This document shows, piece by piece, positions 4,665-13,347 of a DNA stretch of 64,000 nt. A model generated the notes under the pieces. That model searched no databases and was not told the DNA's origin. It was given only the letters and a program-made list of their open reading frames with translations. This DNA comes from Gammaproteobacteria bacterium (lineage in GTDB: Bacteria > Pseudomonadota > Gammaproteobacteria > Xanthomonadales > SZUA-36). The stretch lies in contig JAJFLB010000040.1 of assembly GCA_021772915.1 (NCBI GenBank), forward strand, positions 1 through 64,000, written 5' to 3'. The position numbers and the translations under genes were made by a program. Position 1 is the stretch's first letter, and every line of letters starts with the position of its first letter.

Positions 4665-6182
4665 ATGGCGACAAACGATTTAAGGGCCTTTCTTGACCAA
4701 CTGGACGCCAGTGGGGACTTGTTTCGGGTGCCCGTAGAAGTCGACACGCTCGATGAAATGGGCGCATTCATCGCCCGCGCCGACTATCAGGGTGTTGATT
4801 CGCCGATCGTGTTTGAGAACCCAAAAGGCTTTGATATTCCCGTATTGGCCAACACAGTGGGACACAGCTACCGGCGTATGGCAGAGGCATTCGGGGTAAG
4901 TCAAGACAATGCCCTGCCAGAGTGTGCCCAGCGGATGATGCAGGTGCTGAAATCCGGCGGTGTACAGCCAGTCCGCGTCGAGCAGGATCACGCGCCTTGT
5001 CAGGAGGTGGTACTTGAGGGTGATGATGTGGATCTCGGTATCCTGCCAGTACTGCGGCTCAACCCGCAGGACGGACAGGGTGCCCCGGATTTATCCGAGG
5101 GCCGTTACATGACCAGTCTGTGTGTCTCCAAACCCAGGGAAGGCGCCCACAACCTCTCCTACCACCGCTTTGAAATCACCTCAAAAAACTCCGGGTCGGT
5201 ATGGATTTTTCGAGGTACCGGCGACGCCAAAAGCATGGAAGACCATTGGGGTGCGAAAATTGATGACCCTTCCTCAAGCTGGGACCATGAAAACGCCCGG
5301 CCATTCCCAATGGCATTCGTCTTCGGTGTGACCCCTGAGTTCCTCCTGGCGGGAGCCAATTCTGCCCTGCCCCATGAAAACAATGACTTTGCCTTTATTG
5401 GTGGTCTCAATTCTGAGCCGGTGGAGCTTGTTAAGTGCCGCACCATTGATGTTGATGTGCCGGCCAATGCGGAAATTATTGTCGAGGGCGTATTTAAACC
5501 CTTCAACTGGACCACCCAGGGTCAATTCGCGTCATTCAATGGTTTTTACGACGTACCCCGGCGTCGACCCATCTTTGACATCACCGGTATCACCATGCGC
5601 AAGAACCCCATGTATCAGCACGTGCACATCGGCCGGCCTCTGAACGAGTGCAACTCGATCGCAGCGTTCTTTCGCTCAGTACGCTGTTTTGTCCAGCTCA
5701 AAGAGATCATGCCAAACGTTACCGATGTATTCGTAGACCCGGCCGCAGGATGTGGGTTCACCGTGCACGTAGCGCTTAAAAAGGCCCGCATCGGCGAACC
5801 CAAGATGGCGATGATGCGGGCTTACACCGCGCTGGCCGGGTTCTGCAAGCATGTCTTTGTATACGACGACGATATCAACATTCGTGATTCCCTGGAACGG
5901 GATTGGGCGCTCGCCCATCGCTTCATACCTGATCGTGATTTGATGATTATTCCCAATGTCCTTGGTATGAACATTGAGCCCATGGCACAGGGTGTACTGG
6001 GTGGCAAGACCAGGCTGGGTGTGTACGATGGCTACCCCGAAATCCCACTCAACGTGCGGTCTTTTATGGGGGTTGACTGTACGGTGCCGCTGGGGCTGAA
6101 GGTGATGGACCGGGTGGTGCCGATCCCGGAAGTGGAAGCCCGCGTAGATGAATTGTGGCGAGCTTGTATTCCTGGGACCTGA
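4665..6182 (+). CDS. UbiD family decarboxylase-like protein, altered active site
   Basis: A 505-residue UbiD-fold protein (family range about 450-520). Known members use prenylated FMN to (de)carboxylate aromatic or acrylic acids. The prFMN/metal region NLSYHRFEI keeps the conserved Asn and Arg. The usual EGPFGE segment with both catalytic glutamates reads QGQFAS (about residues 284-289), and the usual SEY metal Glu reads NDF. It may be a specialised carboxylase, a non-catalytic subunit like some phenylphosphate carboxylase components, or act on another substrate. AGGGAGAA lies just before the ATG. It is followed 12 bases later by a marR gene, suggesting regulated catabolism. Confidence 0.8.
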   Translation: MATNDLRAFLDQLDASGDLFRVPVEVDTLDEMGAFIARADYQGVDSPIVFENPKGFDIPVLANTVGHSYRRMAEAFGVSQDNALPECAQRMMQVLKSGGVQPVRVEQDHAPCQEVVLEGDDVDLGILPVLRLNPQDGQGAPDLSEGRYMTSLCVSKPREGAHNLSYHRFEITSKNSGSVWIFRGTGDAKSMEDHWGAKIDDPSSSWDHENARPFPMAFVFGVTPEFLLAGANSALPHENNDFAFIGGLNSEPVELVKCRTIDVDVPANAEIIVEGVFKPFNWTTQGQFASFNGFYDVPRRRPIFDITGITMRKNPMYQHVHIGRPLNECNSIAAFFRSVRCFVQLKEIMPNVTDVFVDPAAGCGFTVHVALKKARIGEPKMAMMRAYTALAGFCKHVFVYDDDINIRDSLERDWALAHRFIPDRDLMIIPNVLGMNIEPMAQGVLGGKTRLGVYDGYPEIPLNVRSFMGVDCTVPLGLKVMDRVVPIPEVEARVDELWRACIPGT

Positions 6183-6194
6183 CCGAAAAAAACC

Positions 6195-6653
6195 ATGAAC
6201 ACTCATCAGCAGGTTGAGCCGCCGCTGTCCGAACACGACGAGGAAGTCTGTATCAGCATCTTCCGCTCAGTCATGCGGACACACCATGATTTGCACACAC
6301 TGGGTGCATCCATAGCCGCCGACTTCAGCTTGCATATTGCAGAGCTCAACGTCATCGACATGTTAGGCAAACTGGGACCAATTACCATGGGTGAACTGTC
6401 GCGGGCCACATTTATCTCGCCCTCCAACACGACCCACACGGTAAAGAAACTGGAAAGCTCGGGGCTGGTGGCACGGCAACGCCTGGTGGCTTCTGAACGC
6501 AAGGTGGAGGTGTCTTTAACCACCAAAGGCGCACAACTTTTCAAGACCTGCTACCCGCGTATCCTGACAACTGTGGAGCATTTGCTAGAGCAACGATTGA
6601 GTGCAAGTGAGCGGACCGTCCTGGCCCAGCTACTTAATAAGTTAAGTGGCTAA
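6195..6653 (+). CDS. MarR family transcriptional regulator
   Basis: 152 residues with the MarR winged-helix pattern: ITMGELSRATFISPSNTTHTV as helix-turn-helix and a basic wing around ARQRLVASERKVEV, ending in SLTTKG. MarR proteins commonly repress adjacent catabolic or transport genes and respond to aromatic ligands. It lies between the UbiD-like gene and an exporter-like gene and overlaps the latter, so it probably controls this group. I did not find an unambiguous palindromic site upstream of the operon. Confidence 0.85.
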   Translation: MNTHQQVEPPLSEHDEEVCISIFRSVMRTHHDLHTLGASIAADFSLHIAELNVIDMLGKLGPITMGELSRATFISPSNTTHTVKKLESSGLVARQRLVASERKVEVSLTTKGAQLFKTCYPRILTTVEHLLEQRLSASERTVLAQLLNKLSG

Positions 6654-8258: not shown

Positions 8259-8401
8259 GCAGCTGCTCCATATTCGTTGATGTTTTCAAAATCTATCTGT
8301 CGGACTCTCGAAGATAAGACCAGAAAACCCAGAATGCTGTTCATAATTCCAGCGGCCGGGCAATAGTCCTGATTGACAGTTTGGGGGTTGCTACCCTACG
8401 A

Positions 8402-8425
8402 TATAATGTACTGTACTGTACAGTA
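8402..8425 (+). promoter_or_regulatory. Promoter -10 with 12-bp palindromic operator
   Basis: A perfect TATAAT at 8402-8407 is followed seven bases later by the perfect palindrome TACTGTACAGTA (8414-8425), placed where transcription would start. A TTGACA at 8373-8378 is 23 bases upstream, too far for a standard -35; TTGGGG at 8381-8386 is closer. The geometry suits a repressor blocking initiation of the + strand ThDP enzyme operon with a leader of about 230 bases. The cognate regulator is not identified. The rest of 8259-8648 shows no gene on the strand used. Confidence 0.5.
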
Positions 8426-8648: not shown

Positions 8649-10553
8649 ATGACCAATGACACGCTAAGGGTCTCCGCCAAGGCGCTGTTGGACGGCGGTC
8701 TGTCACGACGCTCATTTTTGAACCGGCTGGCGTCCCTGGGAATTGCCGCCTCCGGTGCCAGCACTGTCCTGAACACACTTCTTCCCACTCCGGCACTGGC
8801 CGCAACCCGAGGTGAAGGTAGACGTTTGCAGGGTCTGACCGGTGGTGAACTGATGGTCGAGTTTCTGCAAGACTGGAAGGTGCCCTACGTGTTTGGTGTG
8901 GGTGGCTCGGAGGAAGTTGGCTTTCTCGATGCCATGATAGACCGTGAAGGCTTACATTATGTACTGGCGCTGCATGAAGGTTCCGCGCTGTCGATGGCCG
9001 ACGGCTTTGCACGCGCCAACGGCACGACCGGTTTTGTAAACCTGCATTCGATTGCCGGTGCAGCCAACGCCCTGGGACCCATGGTCAACGCCTTCAAGGA
9101 CCGCACGCCACTGGTCGTTACCGTGGGGCGCCAAAGCACCGATATCCGCGGCCACGATGCATTTCTTGAAGCCGCCAATCTACACACCTTACCGGCCGAT
9201 TATGCACGTTGGACCTGGGATGTCATGCGCAGTGATTTGATCCCCGAAACCCTACGTCGGGCCTTTCTGATCTCGTCCGTTCCGCCCCAGGGTCCCTCGT
9301 TCCTGACGTTTTCCAAGGACCTGTGGGAACAAAAAGTGTCGGAGGCTGAAATTGTTGCACCCGACAGGTCACCGATCAGTCATGCCATTCAAGCTGACGA
9401 CGAGGTGATCGAAGAACTCGTTGACCGTCTGTTGCGTGCCGATTCGCCGTTGCTCATCGCCGGGCGCGAGCTGGGGCAATATGGGGGAAATACCGAACTG
9501 GTCGCCATTGCAGATTTGCTCGGTGCCCCCGTTTTGGGTGATGTGCCGGCCAGCCACAGCACCATCAGTTTTCCTACCAACCATCCACTATATGGCGGAC
9601 TTTTCACGCTTGATGAGGGCGCCCTGTTGGACTTTGACCTGTTCTGGTCGGTTGGCGGCACCATGTTCACCCAGTTCAGCAAACAGGCGTCACCGATAGT
9701 CAGTCCAACGGTCGAAGTGCTCCACTCCAGCATCGACGGCACGCGCATCGGCCGTAACTACCCGGTAGACCTGGCCGTCGCGGGCAACCCACAACTCAGC
9801 TTGCAAGCGGTGTTGGCTGAGCTACAACAACGCAAGCTTCCGGCCAGCAAAATCACTGCCCGCCGCAAGCTCGTAGTCGAACGCAACAACGCAAGACGCA
9901 AACGCCTGATGGCGGTGGCGAAAAAAGTCTGGAACGAATCACCCATTGCACCGGAGCGCCTGGCCGTCGAACTGAATAATCGCCTTGATGCTGCCGCCAC
10001 CGTGGTGACTGAAATGGCGACCTCCGATTTCAACGTGTGGCGCTATCTTGATTTTCAACAGGCCAACCCAGGCCGATACCACATCACCTCTTCCGGAGGA
10101 TTTCTTGGCTGGGGATTGGGCGCCGCGATCGGGGCAAAAATGGGCCGGGCGCAACAGCAGACAGTTTTACTGATTGGCGACGGTAGTTTTCAGTTTGGTG
10201 TGCAGGCGTTGTGGAGTGCCGCCCGCTACCATGTGCCGGTTGCCATCATTATCTGGAATAACCATGCCTACCAAGCCAACCGTCGAGCCCTGCATCGCTA
10301 TGGTGGAAAGGCAGCCGCAACCGGAAAATATACCGGCTGCTACCTGGGCTCACCGATCATTGATAACGTCCGGATCGCCAAGGGTTACGGTGTCGACGGT
10401 GAGAAAGTGACCGACCCCACCAAACTGGGGGAAGCCATAGATCGATGTCTCAAGACGATTACTTCCGGCTCTCCTTACGTGCTGGATGTCTCGATTCAGC
10501 CCCGCGCAGGCGGCGCCGATTCCACCTGGTTCGACGAGTTCACCATCGCATGA
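8649..10553 (+). CDS. Tat-exported ThDP-dependent enzyme
   Basis: 634 residues. The N-terminus has a Tat signal (SRRSFLN at residues 19-25, a hydrophobic stretch, PALAA cleavage site near 52), followed by a full three-domain ThDP enzyme of the acetolactate synthase/benzoylformate decarboxylase type. The catalytic Glu lies in LHEGSAL (about E110), and the ThDP/Mg motif runs from GDGS (about 510) to NN (about 537). Members ligate or decarboxylate 2-oxo acids and are almost always cytoplasmic, so a Tat-exported version is unusual; Tat fits a cofactor-loaded protein. Its stop overlaps the ATG of the amidase-like gene (ATGA). Substrate unknown. Confidence 0.85.
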   Translation: MTNDTLRVSAKALLDGGLSRRSFLNRLASLGIAASGASTVLNTLLPTPALAATRGEGRRLQGLTGGELMVEFLQDWKVPYVFGVGGSEEVGFLDAMIDREGLHYVLALHEGSALSMADGFARANGTTGFVNLHSIAGAANALGPMVNAFKDRTPLVVTVGRQSTDIRGHDAFLEAANLHTLPADYARWTWDVMRSDLIPETLRRAFLISSVPPQGPSFLTFSKDLWEQKVSEAEIVAPDRSPISHAIQADDEVIEELVDRLLRADSPLLIAGRELGQYGGNTELVAIADLLGAPVLGDVPASHSTISFPTNHPLYGGLFTLDEGALLDFDLFWSVGGTMFTQFSKQASPIVSPTVEVLHSSIDGTRIGRNYPVDLAVAGNPQLSLQAVLAELQQRKLPASKITARRKLVVERNNARRKRLMAVAKKVWNESPIAPERLAVELNNRLDAAATVVTEMATSDFNVWRYLDFQQANPGRYHITSSGGFLGWGLGAAIGAKMGRAQQQTVLLIGDGSFQFGVQALWSAARYHVPVAIIIWNNHAYQANRRALHRYGGKAAATGKYTGCYLGSPIIDNVRIAKGYGVDGEKVTDPTKLGEAIDRCLKTITSGSPYVLDVSIQPRAGGADSTWFDEFTIA

Positions 10554-11560
10554 AATTCAAGGGCAGCATCTTGTTACTGGCCAGCGCTGTATTAAGCACC
10601 TGCGCAACGCTCCCGGCCGGGCCCGGGGCGCCCGTAGTTAATGCTGTCGAAATTCAATTCAGGCTCGGTAGAGACCAGACCCACAATAAATTCAGTGCCT
10701 CTATTCCACCCGTTCTTACCGTGCCCTCCGGAGCTGTCGTAGAGGTTGAAACCCAGGAGGCAACCGACGGGCAGATCAGGCCGGATTCAGACGTCACAGT
10801 TTTCCAGACATTGGACTTCAACAAGGTGCACGCATTGACCGGACCCGTTTACGTGGAGGGTGCGGAACCCGGCGACGTGCTTGCGGTAACCTTGCACCGG
10901 ATCACCCTGGGTAGTTACGGATGGTCAGCTATCATTCCCGGTTTCGGTGTATTGGCAGATGAATTTCCCGAACGTCGTTTAAAAACCTATGCATTCGATG
11001 CAGAAGGAACCCAGGTCCAATTCTCTGACAAAATAGTGATTCCATTAAAGCCATTTCCCGGTGTCATGGGGGTTGCACCCCCAACTGATGAGTTGCTGAC
11101 CACCATTCCACCAAGGGCCAACGGTGGCAATATGGATGACCCCGACATTACCGTGGGGACAACGGTCTATTTCCCGGTGTTTGTAAAAGGCGGTTTGTTT
11201 TCCATTGGCGATACGCACGCGGTGCAAGGTCACGGTGAGGTGAGCGGAACGGCAATAGAAGCACCCATGCGGATCGTCTACGAAATCAATGTCGTCAAGG
11301 GTAACCCGCGACACATAGAGGAACCCCAGTACGAAAACGACGATCATTACGCGGTTACAGCTTTTGCTACAACCCTGGATGAGGCCGCAAAAAAGGCCAC
11401 CCGCTACATGGTCAAGTACCTGCAGAACGAACACGGTCTGGATCGATGGGAAGCCTATATGCTTGCATCGACGGCCGGAGACCTGAAAATCGCAGAGATT
11501 GTAGATATGCCACACGTGCTGGTCAGCATGCATATACCAAAGGCGATTTTCAGCAAATAA
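10550..11560 (+). CDS. Exported acetamidase/formamidase family protein
   Basis: 336 residues starting at ATG 10550, which overlaps the ThDP enzyme stop. A hydrophobic N-terminus (GSILLLASAVLSTCATL) indicates export; LSTC is an imperfect lipobox. The body is FmdA/AmdA-like, with GDTHAVQGHGEVSGTAIE around residues 222-239 as the best motif and GVAPP earlier. Characterised members hydrolyse formamide or short amides in the cytoplasm. Here the enzyme would act in the periplasm or on a membrane, coupled to the ThDP enzyme. The product relationship between the two is an inference from overlap only. Confidence 0.8.
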   Translation: MKFKGSILLLASAVLSTCATLPAGPGAPVVNAVEIQFRLGRDQTHNKFSASIPPVLTVPSGAVVEVETQEATDGQIRPDSDVTVFQTLDFNKVHALTGPVYVEGAEPGDVLAVTLHRITLGSYGWSAIIPGFGVLADEFPERRLKTYAFDAEGTQVQFSDKIVIPLKPFPGVMGVAPPTDELLTTIPPRANGGNMDDPDITVGTTVYFPVFVKGGLFSIGDTHAVQGHGEVSGTAIEAPMRIVYEINVVKGNPRHIEEPQYENDDHYAVTAFATTLDEAAKKATRYMVKYLQNEHGLDRWEAYMLASTAGDLKIAEIVDMPHVLVSMHIPKAIFSK

Positions 11561-11592: not shown

Positions 11593-12357
11593 CTAGTCAA
11601 TATTCTTGGCGTCCTTGTACATCACCTTATGGCGCATTTTTTTGATCCAGGTGTCCAGATCCTCGTCACTCATGAAATTATCCGGGTTGAACCGGTCCCA
11701 ATTGGTAATCTGTGATGCGTCTTTTTTCCAGCGTTTGTAAATAGGTTTTTTGGGTGGGCCGAAGCAGAATATGTCCAAGATCGACAACTCATCAGGAATC
11801 CCCAGCAAGGGTCTCATGGCGTCCTGCGCCTGTTGCTGACCAATGGCTGTTACCCACCAGACGTTATAACCCAGGGCCGCTGCGGCCAGGTGCGCCGACA
11901 TGGTTGCGGCGGCTACACTCTGCAGCAAAATACGCTCGGCATTTTCGATATACATCTTGTTGAGTTCAGAATCATCATCACGCAACACCGGAAAAGCGCT
12001 GACATAACGAAAATCCGAAGCCACCACAATAAACCCGGGTGCGGTAGCAAGACCACTGTAATCCGGCGTCGGAAATTTCATCTTCAGACGGGCCCTGACA
12101 CGCTGCTCTTCAACAAAGTAATCGGCGATCTTCTGCTTCGCAGCCTGCTCCCGTACGATTATAAAATGCCAGGGTTGGGCGTTGGCGCCTGACGGCGCAT
12201 GACGGGCGGCCTCCAGAATCAGCTCAAAGTGTTCTTCCGGTACCACGAATTCCGGATCGAACTGACGGGTTGTAATCCGATTCCGGGCAATGTCCATGAA
12301 ACGGTCATAGAGCAGGCGTTCACCAATTTTTGGCGATTCTTCTTTGTTGTCGCGCAT
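11593..12357 (-). CDS. Nitroreductase family protein
   Basis: 254 residues if started at ATG 12357 (MRDNKEESP); a 14-residue longer frame exists. The FMN-binding nitroreductase pattern is clear: RNRITTRQFDP near the N-terminus, APSGANAQPWHFIIV, and a later LGYNVWWVTAIG. Members reduce nitro compounds, quinones or enones with NAD(P)H, usually as dimers. The C-terminal tail (KPIYKRWKKDASQI) resembles BluB/iodotyrosine-deiodinase-like relatives, so substrate class remains open. It converges on the ThDP enzyme/amidase pair and is independently transcribed. Confidence 0.85.
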   Translation of the reverse strand: MRDNKEESPKIGERLLYDRFMDIARNRITTRQFDPEFVVPEEHFELILEAARHAPSGANAQPWHFIIVREQAAKQKIADYFVEEQRVRARLKMKFPTPDYSGLATAPGFIVVASDFRYVSAFPVLRDDDSELNKMYIENAERILLQSVAAATMSAHLAAAALGYNVWWVTAIGQQQAQDAMRPLLGIPDELSILDIFCFGPPKKPIYKRWKKDASQITNWDRFNPDNFMSDEDLDTWIKKMRHKVMYKDAKNID

Positions 12358-12579
12358 GCAGGGATTCTCTTCAAGACAGTCTGGATTAGGTGGAAACACG
12401 TCGTAGTATACCGTTTTCGATCCGCGGGGAAGACGACGATACGGCGGTCGCTTTAGCCTGTCGATTGCTCAATCCAACGAGTTGCAGCAGGTGACGTAAT
12501 GTCTTGGTATAGAATCCGGTCTCATAACCATGACCGATCTCCAGATCATGACCGTCTAACATTTTCCCAGGTAAACAAT

Positions 12580-13347
12580 ATGAAAATCAAATTATTACAC
12601 TTCACTATGCTGTCCTTTCTATTGCTTTCGGCTGGTCCTGTAATCGCGGCACAATGGGATGCCAGCGCACTGACAAGGGCCATCGCTAACAGCCCTAACA
12701 GACCCGCCGGCGATGCCAAACGTGATGCTGGGCGTAAACCAGGAGAGATTTTGACCTTTTTTGGTGCACACGAAGGCATGACCGCACTGGACCTGGTGGC
12801 GGCGGGTGGCTGGTATACCGAAGCGCTTTCCGTTGCTGCGGGAAAGACGGGGAAAGTCTACGCACAGAACCCACCAGGCGTGCTGCAAATGCGTGAAGGG
12901 GCCAATGAAAAGGCTATCAGCGCAAGACTGGCAAACGGTCGTCTGGCAAACGTCGAGCGCCTGGATGTGGACCTGGCTGCAATGGCACTGCCGGCCAACA
13001 GCATTGACCTCGCGCTAACAGCACTCAATTTCCACGACATTTACAACCGTTATGGTGAGCCCGCAGCGCTGGGTTTAATGAATCGGATTTTGCAGGTGCT
13101 GAAACCAGGTGGGGTGTTTGGTGTTATCGATCATAATGGTGCAGCAGGCAACGACAATGCCCAGCTACACCGAATTCAAAAGTCATTGGTAGAAGCTGCG
13201 GCCGTCAAGGCCGGATTCACCGTGGAGAGCACCAGCGGTTTACTCAGAAATACTGCTGATCCGTTGAATGTCGGTGTCTTCGATCCCAAACTGCGTGGTC
13301 AAACTGATCGATTTGTACTTAGACTCAGAAAACCGGCTGACAGTTGA
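12580..13347 (+). CDS. Exported COG4798-type methyltransferase-like protein
   Basis: 255 residues from ATG 12580, with a Sec signal peptide (LLHFTMLSFLLLSAGPVIAAQ). The SAM-binding fold is indicated by GMTALDLVAAGGWYTEAL (motif I region), the D-x-D-x-A segment VERLDVDLAAM and the strand after LKPGGVFGVIDH. The GGWYTE feature is typical of the predicted methyltransferases of COG4798, which are often exported. SAM is not expected in the periplasm, so the real cofactor or role is unclear. It stands alone between divergent and intergenic stretches. Confidence 0.75.
   Translation: MKIKLLHFTMLSFLLLSAGPVIAAQWDASALTRAIANSPNRPAGDAKRDAGRKPGEILTFFGAHEGMTALDLVAAGGWYTEALSVAAGKTGKVYAQNPPGVLQMREGANEKAISARLANGRLANVERLDVDLAAMALPANSIDLALTALNFHDIYNRYGEPAALGLMNRILQVLKPGGVFGVIDHNGAAGNDNAQLHRIQKSLVEAAAVKAGFTVESTSGLLRNTADPLNVGVFDPKLRGQTDRFVLRLRKPADS

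Follow-up and report, generated by a model that had tools for sequence, protein, structure and literature searches.

Can an enzyme that depends on thiamine diphosphate (ThDP) work outside the cytoplasm? ThDP enzymes of the kind related to benzoylformate decarboxylase (BFD) are seen as cytoplasmic, and their cofactor is made and loaded there. The question is raised by a gene in positions 1 to 64,000 of contig JAJFLB010000040.1 (Gammaproteobacteria bacterium, assembly GCA_021772915.1), a stretch of 64,000 nucleotides that we call the window. Its product is a ThDP enzyme that begins with a leader of the twin-arginine translocation (Tat) type, and its stop codon overlaps the start of a gene for an FmdA_AmdA (acetamidase/formamidase) family protein. 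An initial annotation had read the two as an exported pair. Both open reading frames (ORFs) and their ATGA overlap lie where it had placed them. The Tat leader of the ThDP enzyme and the signal-like leader of its FmdA-type partner hold up; the pair as a conserved unit, which the annotation had set as a test, does not, since among the loci examined no other ThDP and FmdA genes are neighbours. The more important result lies beyond this local arrangement, in a clade of ThDP enzymes that retains the Tat leader throughout and in a shared predicted operator.

The leader of the ThDP protein reads LLDGGLSRRSFLNRLASLGIAASGASTVLNTLLPTPALA/ATRG (the slash marks the predicted cleavage point), with R20, R21 and F23 and, at its end, A49-L50-A51, so that an S/T-RR-x-F motif, a hydrophobic region and an AxA site are all present. 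The SRRSFLN motif and PALAA site of the initial annotation are thus present in the sequence, and TIGR01409, the NCBIfam Tat model, matches the leader with 19.3 bits against a cut-off of 16.7. In an alignment of Tat-ThDP proteins with identities down to 25%, R20, R21 and F23 are among 35 invariant columns, being found in 12 of 12 rows. LSRRGF occurs in all 19 Acidobacteriota loci checked (one of these genomes doubles as a row of the alignment), the leader of a Woeseia fragment (L015) contains ISRRSF, and AxA is present in most rows, with none in the tested stretch of L048. Moreover, the genome encodes TatC. Homologues on plasmids, of which 138 records matched, align from query residue 56 or later in 25 of the 25 cases listed.

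Compared with a relative of 76% identity, the leader codons have diverged by 0.22 per site at positions 1 and 2 and by 0.54 at position 3, and the core codons by 0.15 and 0.52, respectively; leader residues 10-32 are roughly as constrained as the core. This pattern suggests that the leader is translated and under selection. A misplaced start was considered and rejected, since the next in-frame ATG is residue 69, within the first core helix (65-75), and the leader codons look selected. TTG codons at residues 14, 24 and 60 are formal alternative starts.

A maximum-likelihood tree inferred with the leaders removed recovers 14 Tat-leader proteins as one group (support 97/98, 98% of bootstraps), adjoined by a group of seven leaderless BFD-like proteins. 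This tree leaves out L007 and L017 as short, L016 for its odd composition and three Acidobacteriota rows that are nearly identical. With the leaders in, 17 Tat rows also group (99/96). The clade spans Gammaproteobacteria, Alphaproteobacteria and Acidobacteriota, and the leaderless homologues above the cut-offs, in genomes G368 and G547, fall outside the Tat group in the trees. In the alignment a C-terminal GA.S.WH-like tail is common to groups A, B and C, including a second Tat-ThDP protein (the paralogue) of the window's genome, and is missing in three leaderless references and in the L048 protein. The sequences make a single origin of the clade likely but not proven, given the midpoint root, the long branch and unsure placement of the Tat-leader protein of L048, and the small sample. 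Searches, whose counts include the own or centre genome and whose cut-offs differ, found ThDP matches in 2 of 61 relatives (E 1e-60), 2 of 39 genomes of the window's family, 2 of 337 in the class of genome G803 and 21 of 72 in the order of the Acidobacteriota genome G802. A second Tat-ThDP gene exists both in the window's genome (G000) and in that of a relative, G007, each 40-42% identical to the window protein.

The second line of evidence is an 18-mer, TGTACTGTACWGTACWGT, upstream of the ThDP gene. We scanned 125 fetched sequences (1,043,850 bases, about 0.93 Mb without repeats) and found it exactly at four places only, compared to 6e-5 expected from base composition; when up to three mismatches are allowed, shuffled versions of the window yield 0.04 matches. 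In the window it follows directly after a TTGACA-N18-TACGAT promoter. The second copy, on contig C28 of the same genome, lies 79 bp before the DUF3179 ORF that heads a series of genes for a DUF3179 protein, an aldehyde dehydrogenase (ALDH), a TetR protein, a tannase and the Tat-ThDP paralogue. The other two are in G007, one (L011:1558) 37 bp before the ORF at the corresponding DUF3179-ALDH-TetR start and one (L011:7615, minus strand) 31 bp before a TonB receptor ORF. The same promoter elements precede the C28 and the G007 DUF3179 sites, and not the G007 TonB site. The next best separate site (two mismatches, G000:C28:39686) is found 106 bp before the TonB receptor gene of the C28 region. There the receptor is followed by a Tat amidase. 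On the opposite strand come a GMC oxidoreductase, a small partner gene and a protein of the metallo-beta-lactamase fold whose leader is hydrophobic, and after these the cluster headed by the operator begins. Thus, the predicted operator would link the window gene to an unlinked catabolic cluster as a larger regulon. The C28 TetR has an AefR-like C-terminal domain and is 72% identical to that of G007; both share the stretch SGGSKATFYSYFPTK, taken to be the recognition helix. We infer that the TetR of the C28 cluster is the repressor acting on this 18-mer.

The amidase of the C28 region (L116:3902-5677, corresponding to G000:C28:42401-44176) is an amidase-signature enzyme whose RREFLK leader scores above the TIGR01409 cut-off; it is encoded beside the TonB receptor behind the weaker operator.

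The ThDP enzyme appears complete, as had been annotated: its N, M and C ThDP domains (PF02776, PF00205 and PF02775) all score above cut-off, and Glu110, GDGS (510-513) and NN (537-538) are intact. Across 15 aligned rows E110, D511, G512 and N538 are invariant and N537 almost so. The closest NCBIfam model is BFD, with 335 bits versus at most 255 for other models, and the top-scoring PDB chains are BFDs as well. An AlphaFold2 model built from 12 rows (m5f2adb7dc2c4; mean pLDDT 82.4, pTM 0.84) has a leader of low confidence and a core that is mostly confident from about residue 60. This core has the BFD/acetolactate synthase type of fold, and in fold comparisons BFDs and other ThDP enzymes rank highest. 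The equivalents of BFD Ser26, Glu28 and His70, namely Ser87, Glu89 and His133, are all retained. Decarboxylation of a 2-oxo acid is a possible activity of such a protein.

We surveyed the neighbours of eight clade-A and paralogue loci (the window, L011, L012, L013, L014, L015, L019 and L021). In four of them a TonB receptor gene adjoins the ThDP gene, divergently in L011 and on the same strand in L012, L013 and L014, with gaps of 35, 70 and 111 bp, respectively. The receptors are about 25-32% identical among themselves, so the imported compounds may differ. An ALDH gene is found within 4 kb in four of the eight loci. The ALDHs of L011, L012 and L019 are mutually 61-82% identical; that of L013 is 35-38% identical, and that of L021, encoded about 5.6 kb away, 38-40%. 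The order in L012 is TonB receptor, ThDP enzyme, ALDH, with gaps of 35 and 38 bp. The ORF of the own-genome paralogue starts 50 bp after a gene of the tannase/feruloyl-esterase family, with a UbiX gene beyond. Finally, UbiD and MarR genes occur together with the Tat-ThDP gene in two of the eight loci (the window and L015) and were considered as part of the unit.

DUF3179 proteins, 47-71% identical, accompany the ALDH in three Tat-ThDP loci (L019:4401-5741, L011:1613-2818 and L012:2866-4161). The family is listed as a selenoprotein family in the available part of one study (PMC9312934).

Our proposal, to which we give a probability of roughly 0.55, is that the window encodes a Tat-exported enzyme of the BFD branch that belongs to a TetR-controlled regulon and decarboxylates a 2-oxo acid in the periplasm, the aldehyde passing to the ALDH and FmdA being co-transcribed. 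The enzyme would fold with its cofactor in the cytoplasm and the Tat system would then export it in the folded state. An AefR-like TetR repressor binding TGTACTGTACWGTACWGT would control the DUF3179 protein, the ALDH, the TetR protein, the tannase/feruloyl-esterase-family protein and the second Tat-ThDP enzyme, and probably also the TonB-dependent receptor with the Tat amidase. The substrate would enter via the TonB receptor and be trimmed in the periplasm by the amidase/FmdA and the esterase. The ThDP enzyme would most likely decarboxylate a 2-oxo acid there, and the resulting aldehyde would cross the inner membrane and be oxidised inside by the ALDH, which would amount to a mandelate-type pathway with its ThDP step relocated to the outside. 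The FmdA-type amidase, co-transcribed in this genome, would be a lineage-specific addition that hydrolyses an amide within the same flow of substrates; an amide substrate, as in the periplasmic 2-oxo acid/amide pathway put forward by the initial annotation, is suggested indirectly, by the operator shared with the Tat-amidase cluster and by the context of an FmdA gene in genome G011. A broader version, for which we consider the odds to be even, is that the Tat-exported clade, present in at least two phyla, would carry out periplasmic ThDP carbanion chemistry as one step in an assembly line under TetR control, which would consist of TonB receptor, amidases, GMC oxidoreductase, esterase and ThDP enzyme and would process an amide or ester of a plant- or lignin-like kind.

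Several findings weigh against this proposal. For the leaders of L011, L012, L013 and L076 TIGR01409 stays below its cut-off, for those of L019, L022 and L055 it gives no match, and PF10518 (Pfam TAT_signal) does not match the window ThDP leader, even at E 10. The BFD equivalog model NF005485 gives 335.3 bits, which is below its cut-off of 493. At the active site, Phe343 takes the place of BFD His281. In the three clade-B rows Pro stands where BFD has His70, and an equivalent of Glu28 is missing; both paralogues carry Ala at the Ser26 position. In view of the differences in clade B and the paralogues, members may differ in reaction. In the window's genome the ALDH gene sits on a different contig from the window ThDP gene, and four listed Acidobacteriota loci differ in their neighbourhood, with neither a receptor nor an ALDH recognised beside the gene (Pfam was used on one). 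The clade is also rare, with matches in 4 of 369 genomes of the class (the own one included, and one leaderless) and in 2 of 398 of the phylum (the own genome and one leaderless). Finally, within the sequences scanned the operator is found in this genome and in G007 only, with no site at up to three mismatches in L012-L015, L021 or other members.

The alternative that survives best concerns the partner. The FmdA type assigned by the initial annotation is borne out by PF03069 (198.5 bits, cut-off 27), and the protein has a hydrophobic N-terminus that is absent from three cytosolic-looking relatives, which begin at about window residue 41; the FmdA equivalog model NF045496 gives 138 bits, below its cut-off of 500. 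A mechanical ORF list begins the ORF earlier, at 10445. We take the ATG at 10550 as the start because the protein then has the hydrophobic leader, and this start lines up with the leader of the L034 homologue. Of the loci matched at E 1e-8, 67 for ThDP and 23 for FmdA, both occur together only in L001, L018 and L040, all of which are the window's own place, although many of these loci had a flank of 1.5 kb only, so that farther neighbours would escape. A conserved ThDP-FmdA module was rejected on these grounds. In G007 the nearest ThDP relative (L011/L020, 76% identical) is followed by a nitroreductase gene and not by FmdA, for which this genome has no match at E 1e-10; the window counterpart of the nitroreductase, 86% identical, sits beyond FmdA on the opposite strand. 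FmdA matches were found in 8 of 61 relatives and, at E 1e-40, in 10 of 369 genomes of the class, with the own genome in both, and plasmids commonly carry the family (957 records at E 1e-30).

These data would fit a bystander, an amidase gene that landed behind the ThDP gene by a recent rearrangement and has only the transcript in common with it, and we hold this to be only somewhat less probable than an even chance. What speaks against it is the ATGA overlap with its intact frame and the operator in common with the cluster beside the Tat amidase. Moreover, the G011 FmdA, which is 60% identical and has its own signal-like leader, adjoins a TonB receptor, an amidase and a GMC oxidoreductase, as in the C28 region, whose GMC oxidoreductase is 51% identical to that of G011. 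By association, FmdA thus belongs to the same kind of catabolic set. The operator was not found in the G011 and G020 FmdA loci, and among the loci examined an FmdA gene behind a ThDP gene is seen in this genome only. Judged from the sequences, the best reading is that FmdA is a lineage-specific recruit to the pathway.

A less probable alternative, which we regard as unlikely, accepts the export and changes the reaction: the enzyme would be a lyase or ligase of the benzaldehyde-lyase or acyloin type, which cleaves or forms C-C bonds between carbonyls in the periplasm instead of decarboxylating. It draws on the structure comparison, in which BFD (Z 45.0) is level with HKA synthase (45.5), acetohydroxyacid synthases (44.6) and a mutant benzaldehyde lyase (44.5), on the loss of His281 and on the formolase variants of BFD among the closest solved chains. 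By sequence, however, the enzyme is nearest to BFD, in both the NCBIfam scores and the PDB chains. Moreover, the His281Phe exchange in BFD costs only about 5-fold in kcat according to the available part of PMC6028569, and this position is His, Tyr or Ile in the three leaderless references. The mild effect and the variability make the loss of His281 no argument for a lyase.

More doubtful still is that the leader is an uncleaved Tat-like anchor or a relic, and that the enzyme acts inside the cell or at the inner membrane face. Membrane-associated ThDP enzymes that face the cytoplasm do exist. TIGR01409 passes just two of nine ThDP leaders (the window and L014), PF10518 fails on that of the window, and the cleavage site is less clear in some members, such as L048. 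Yet RRxF is kept in every row while the adjacent leader residues vary, most rows retain AxA, and the neighbouring genes encode outer-membrane receptors and proteins that have signal-like leaders, all of which speaks against this reading. Least probable of all is that the 18-mer is the site of a general regulator, for although the scan covered fetched loci only, with about a quarter megabase of the own genome outside the window, exact copies precede only TonB receptor, DUF3179-ALDH-TetR and Tat-ThDP genes, and no other is present in C34, in C28 up to the final 1.4 kb or in what was fetched of G007 C39 and C16.

The features of the window are collected in Table 1. No RNA family scores above its gathering score in the window, and no tRNAs were found there.

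Table 1. Coordinates of the ThDP-FmdA locus, its predicted control elements and neighbouring genes in the window
Feature	Position	Strand	Basis
Sigma-70-like promoter TTGACA-N18-TACGAT	8373..8402	+	10/12 matches; 4 such sites in region versus 2.4 expected, weak alone
Predicted operator TGTACTGTACTGTACAGT	8407..8424	+	exact 18-mer recurrence; 224 bp before ThDP start codon
Palindrome TACTGTACAGTA overlapping the operator	8414-8425		sequence
ThDP enzyme with Tat leader, benzoylformate-decarboxylase-like	8649..10553	+	ORF, 634 aa; Pfam, NCBIfam and PDB matches; model
Predicted Tat signal peptide of ThDP enzyme, residues 1-51, SRRSFL, ALA/A	8649..8801	+	sequence, TIGR01409, invariant RRxF
Catalytic Glu110 codon (= BFD Glu47)	8976..8978	+	invariant in all 15 aligned rows
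ATGA stop/start overlap of ThDP and FmdA genes	10550..10553	+	sequence
FmdA_AmdA acetamidase/formamidase-family protein, signal-like leader	10550..11560	+	ORF, 336 aa counted from its ATG
UbiD-family decarboxylase	4665..6182	+	78% identical to counterpart upstream of Woeseia Tat-ThDP gene (L015)
MarR regulator	6195..6653	+	53% identical to L015 counterpart, also upstream of Woeseia Tat-ThDP gene
Nitroreductase-family protein	11593..12399	-	86% identical to gene directly after nearest Tat-ThDP relative (L011)

Three further observations concern the surroundings of such genes. Methyltransferase-like proteins with signal-like starts, 48% identical to each other, are encoded near Tat-ThDP genes in the window (12499-13347) and in L021 (10928-11746); a signal peptide on a methyltransferase is odd. 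At 1454-2623 the window encodes a URO-D/MtaA-CmuA-like methyltransferase, whose gene is lined up with a DUF2390 gene and one for a DUF885 protein. Finally, L052:1148-3505 (G804:C135) encodes a further ThDP protein, which is more divergent and begins with a Tat-like leader (PF10518 21.9 bits, just below 22.7), and a cytochrome c (PF00034) with a signal-like start begins 3 bp later, which suggests a periplasmic ThDP dehydrogenase that hands electrons to the cytochrome.

A Tat motif that is kept over such a large divergence, in several cases near outer-membrane receptors, implies that a folded enzyme can carry ThDP across the membrane for use outside. If true, ThDP joins the cofactors that are loaded before Tat export, and 2-oxo acid and acyloin chemistry could be sought in a new location in uncultured bacteria. 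The operator makes membership of the pathway and its inducer directly testable. The literature searched yielded no account of an exported ThDP enzyme, which is a weak negative as subscription journals were mostly outside it; the available parts of PMC3306737, PMC3403918, PMC5317091, PMC6050957 and PMC10384211 handle Tat and thiamine separately or describe BFD as intracellular.

Among known systems the closest is BFD (MdlC) of Pseudomonas putida (PDB 1bfd and variants), with which the window enzyme shares the fold (VIA Z about 44-45, 26-27% identity), the catalytic Glu, the equivalents of Ser26, Glu28 and His70 and the GDG...NN ThDP motif. The association with an ALDH has a cytoplasmic parallel in Burkholderia anthina, where mdlC lies next to an aldehyde dehydrogenase gene. 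Unlike BFD, the window enzyme has a Tat leader of about 51 residues, a longer stretch after NN, a C-terminal GADSTW tail, Phe in place of His281, a score below the BFD equivalog cut-off and a TonB/tannase context. The Pseudomonas stutzeri BFD is intracellular and without a signal peptide, according to the available part of PMC10384211. The window FmdA resembles its family (PDB 2ii1, 2f4l, 3tkk, 3b9t) in a near full-length match (1.5e-48 to 2ii1) and in the motifs GGNMD and GDTHAVQGHGE, and differs from it in its Sec-type signal-like leader, its overlap with the ThDP gene and its score below the FmdA equivalog cut-off. Since 3b9t is labelled a Tat-signal protein, export is not new to this family. 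In TonB-receptor-linked periplasmic catabolic loci (SusC-like logic) an outer-membrane receptor and exported enzymes are placed under one regulator. The proposed regulon shares with these loci the receptor beside exported enzymes, and differs from them by its ThDP enzyme with a Tat leader.

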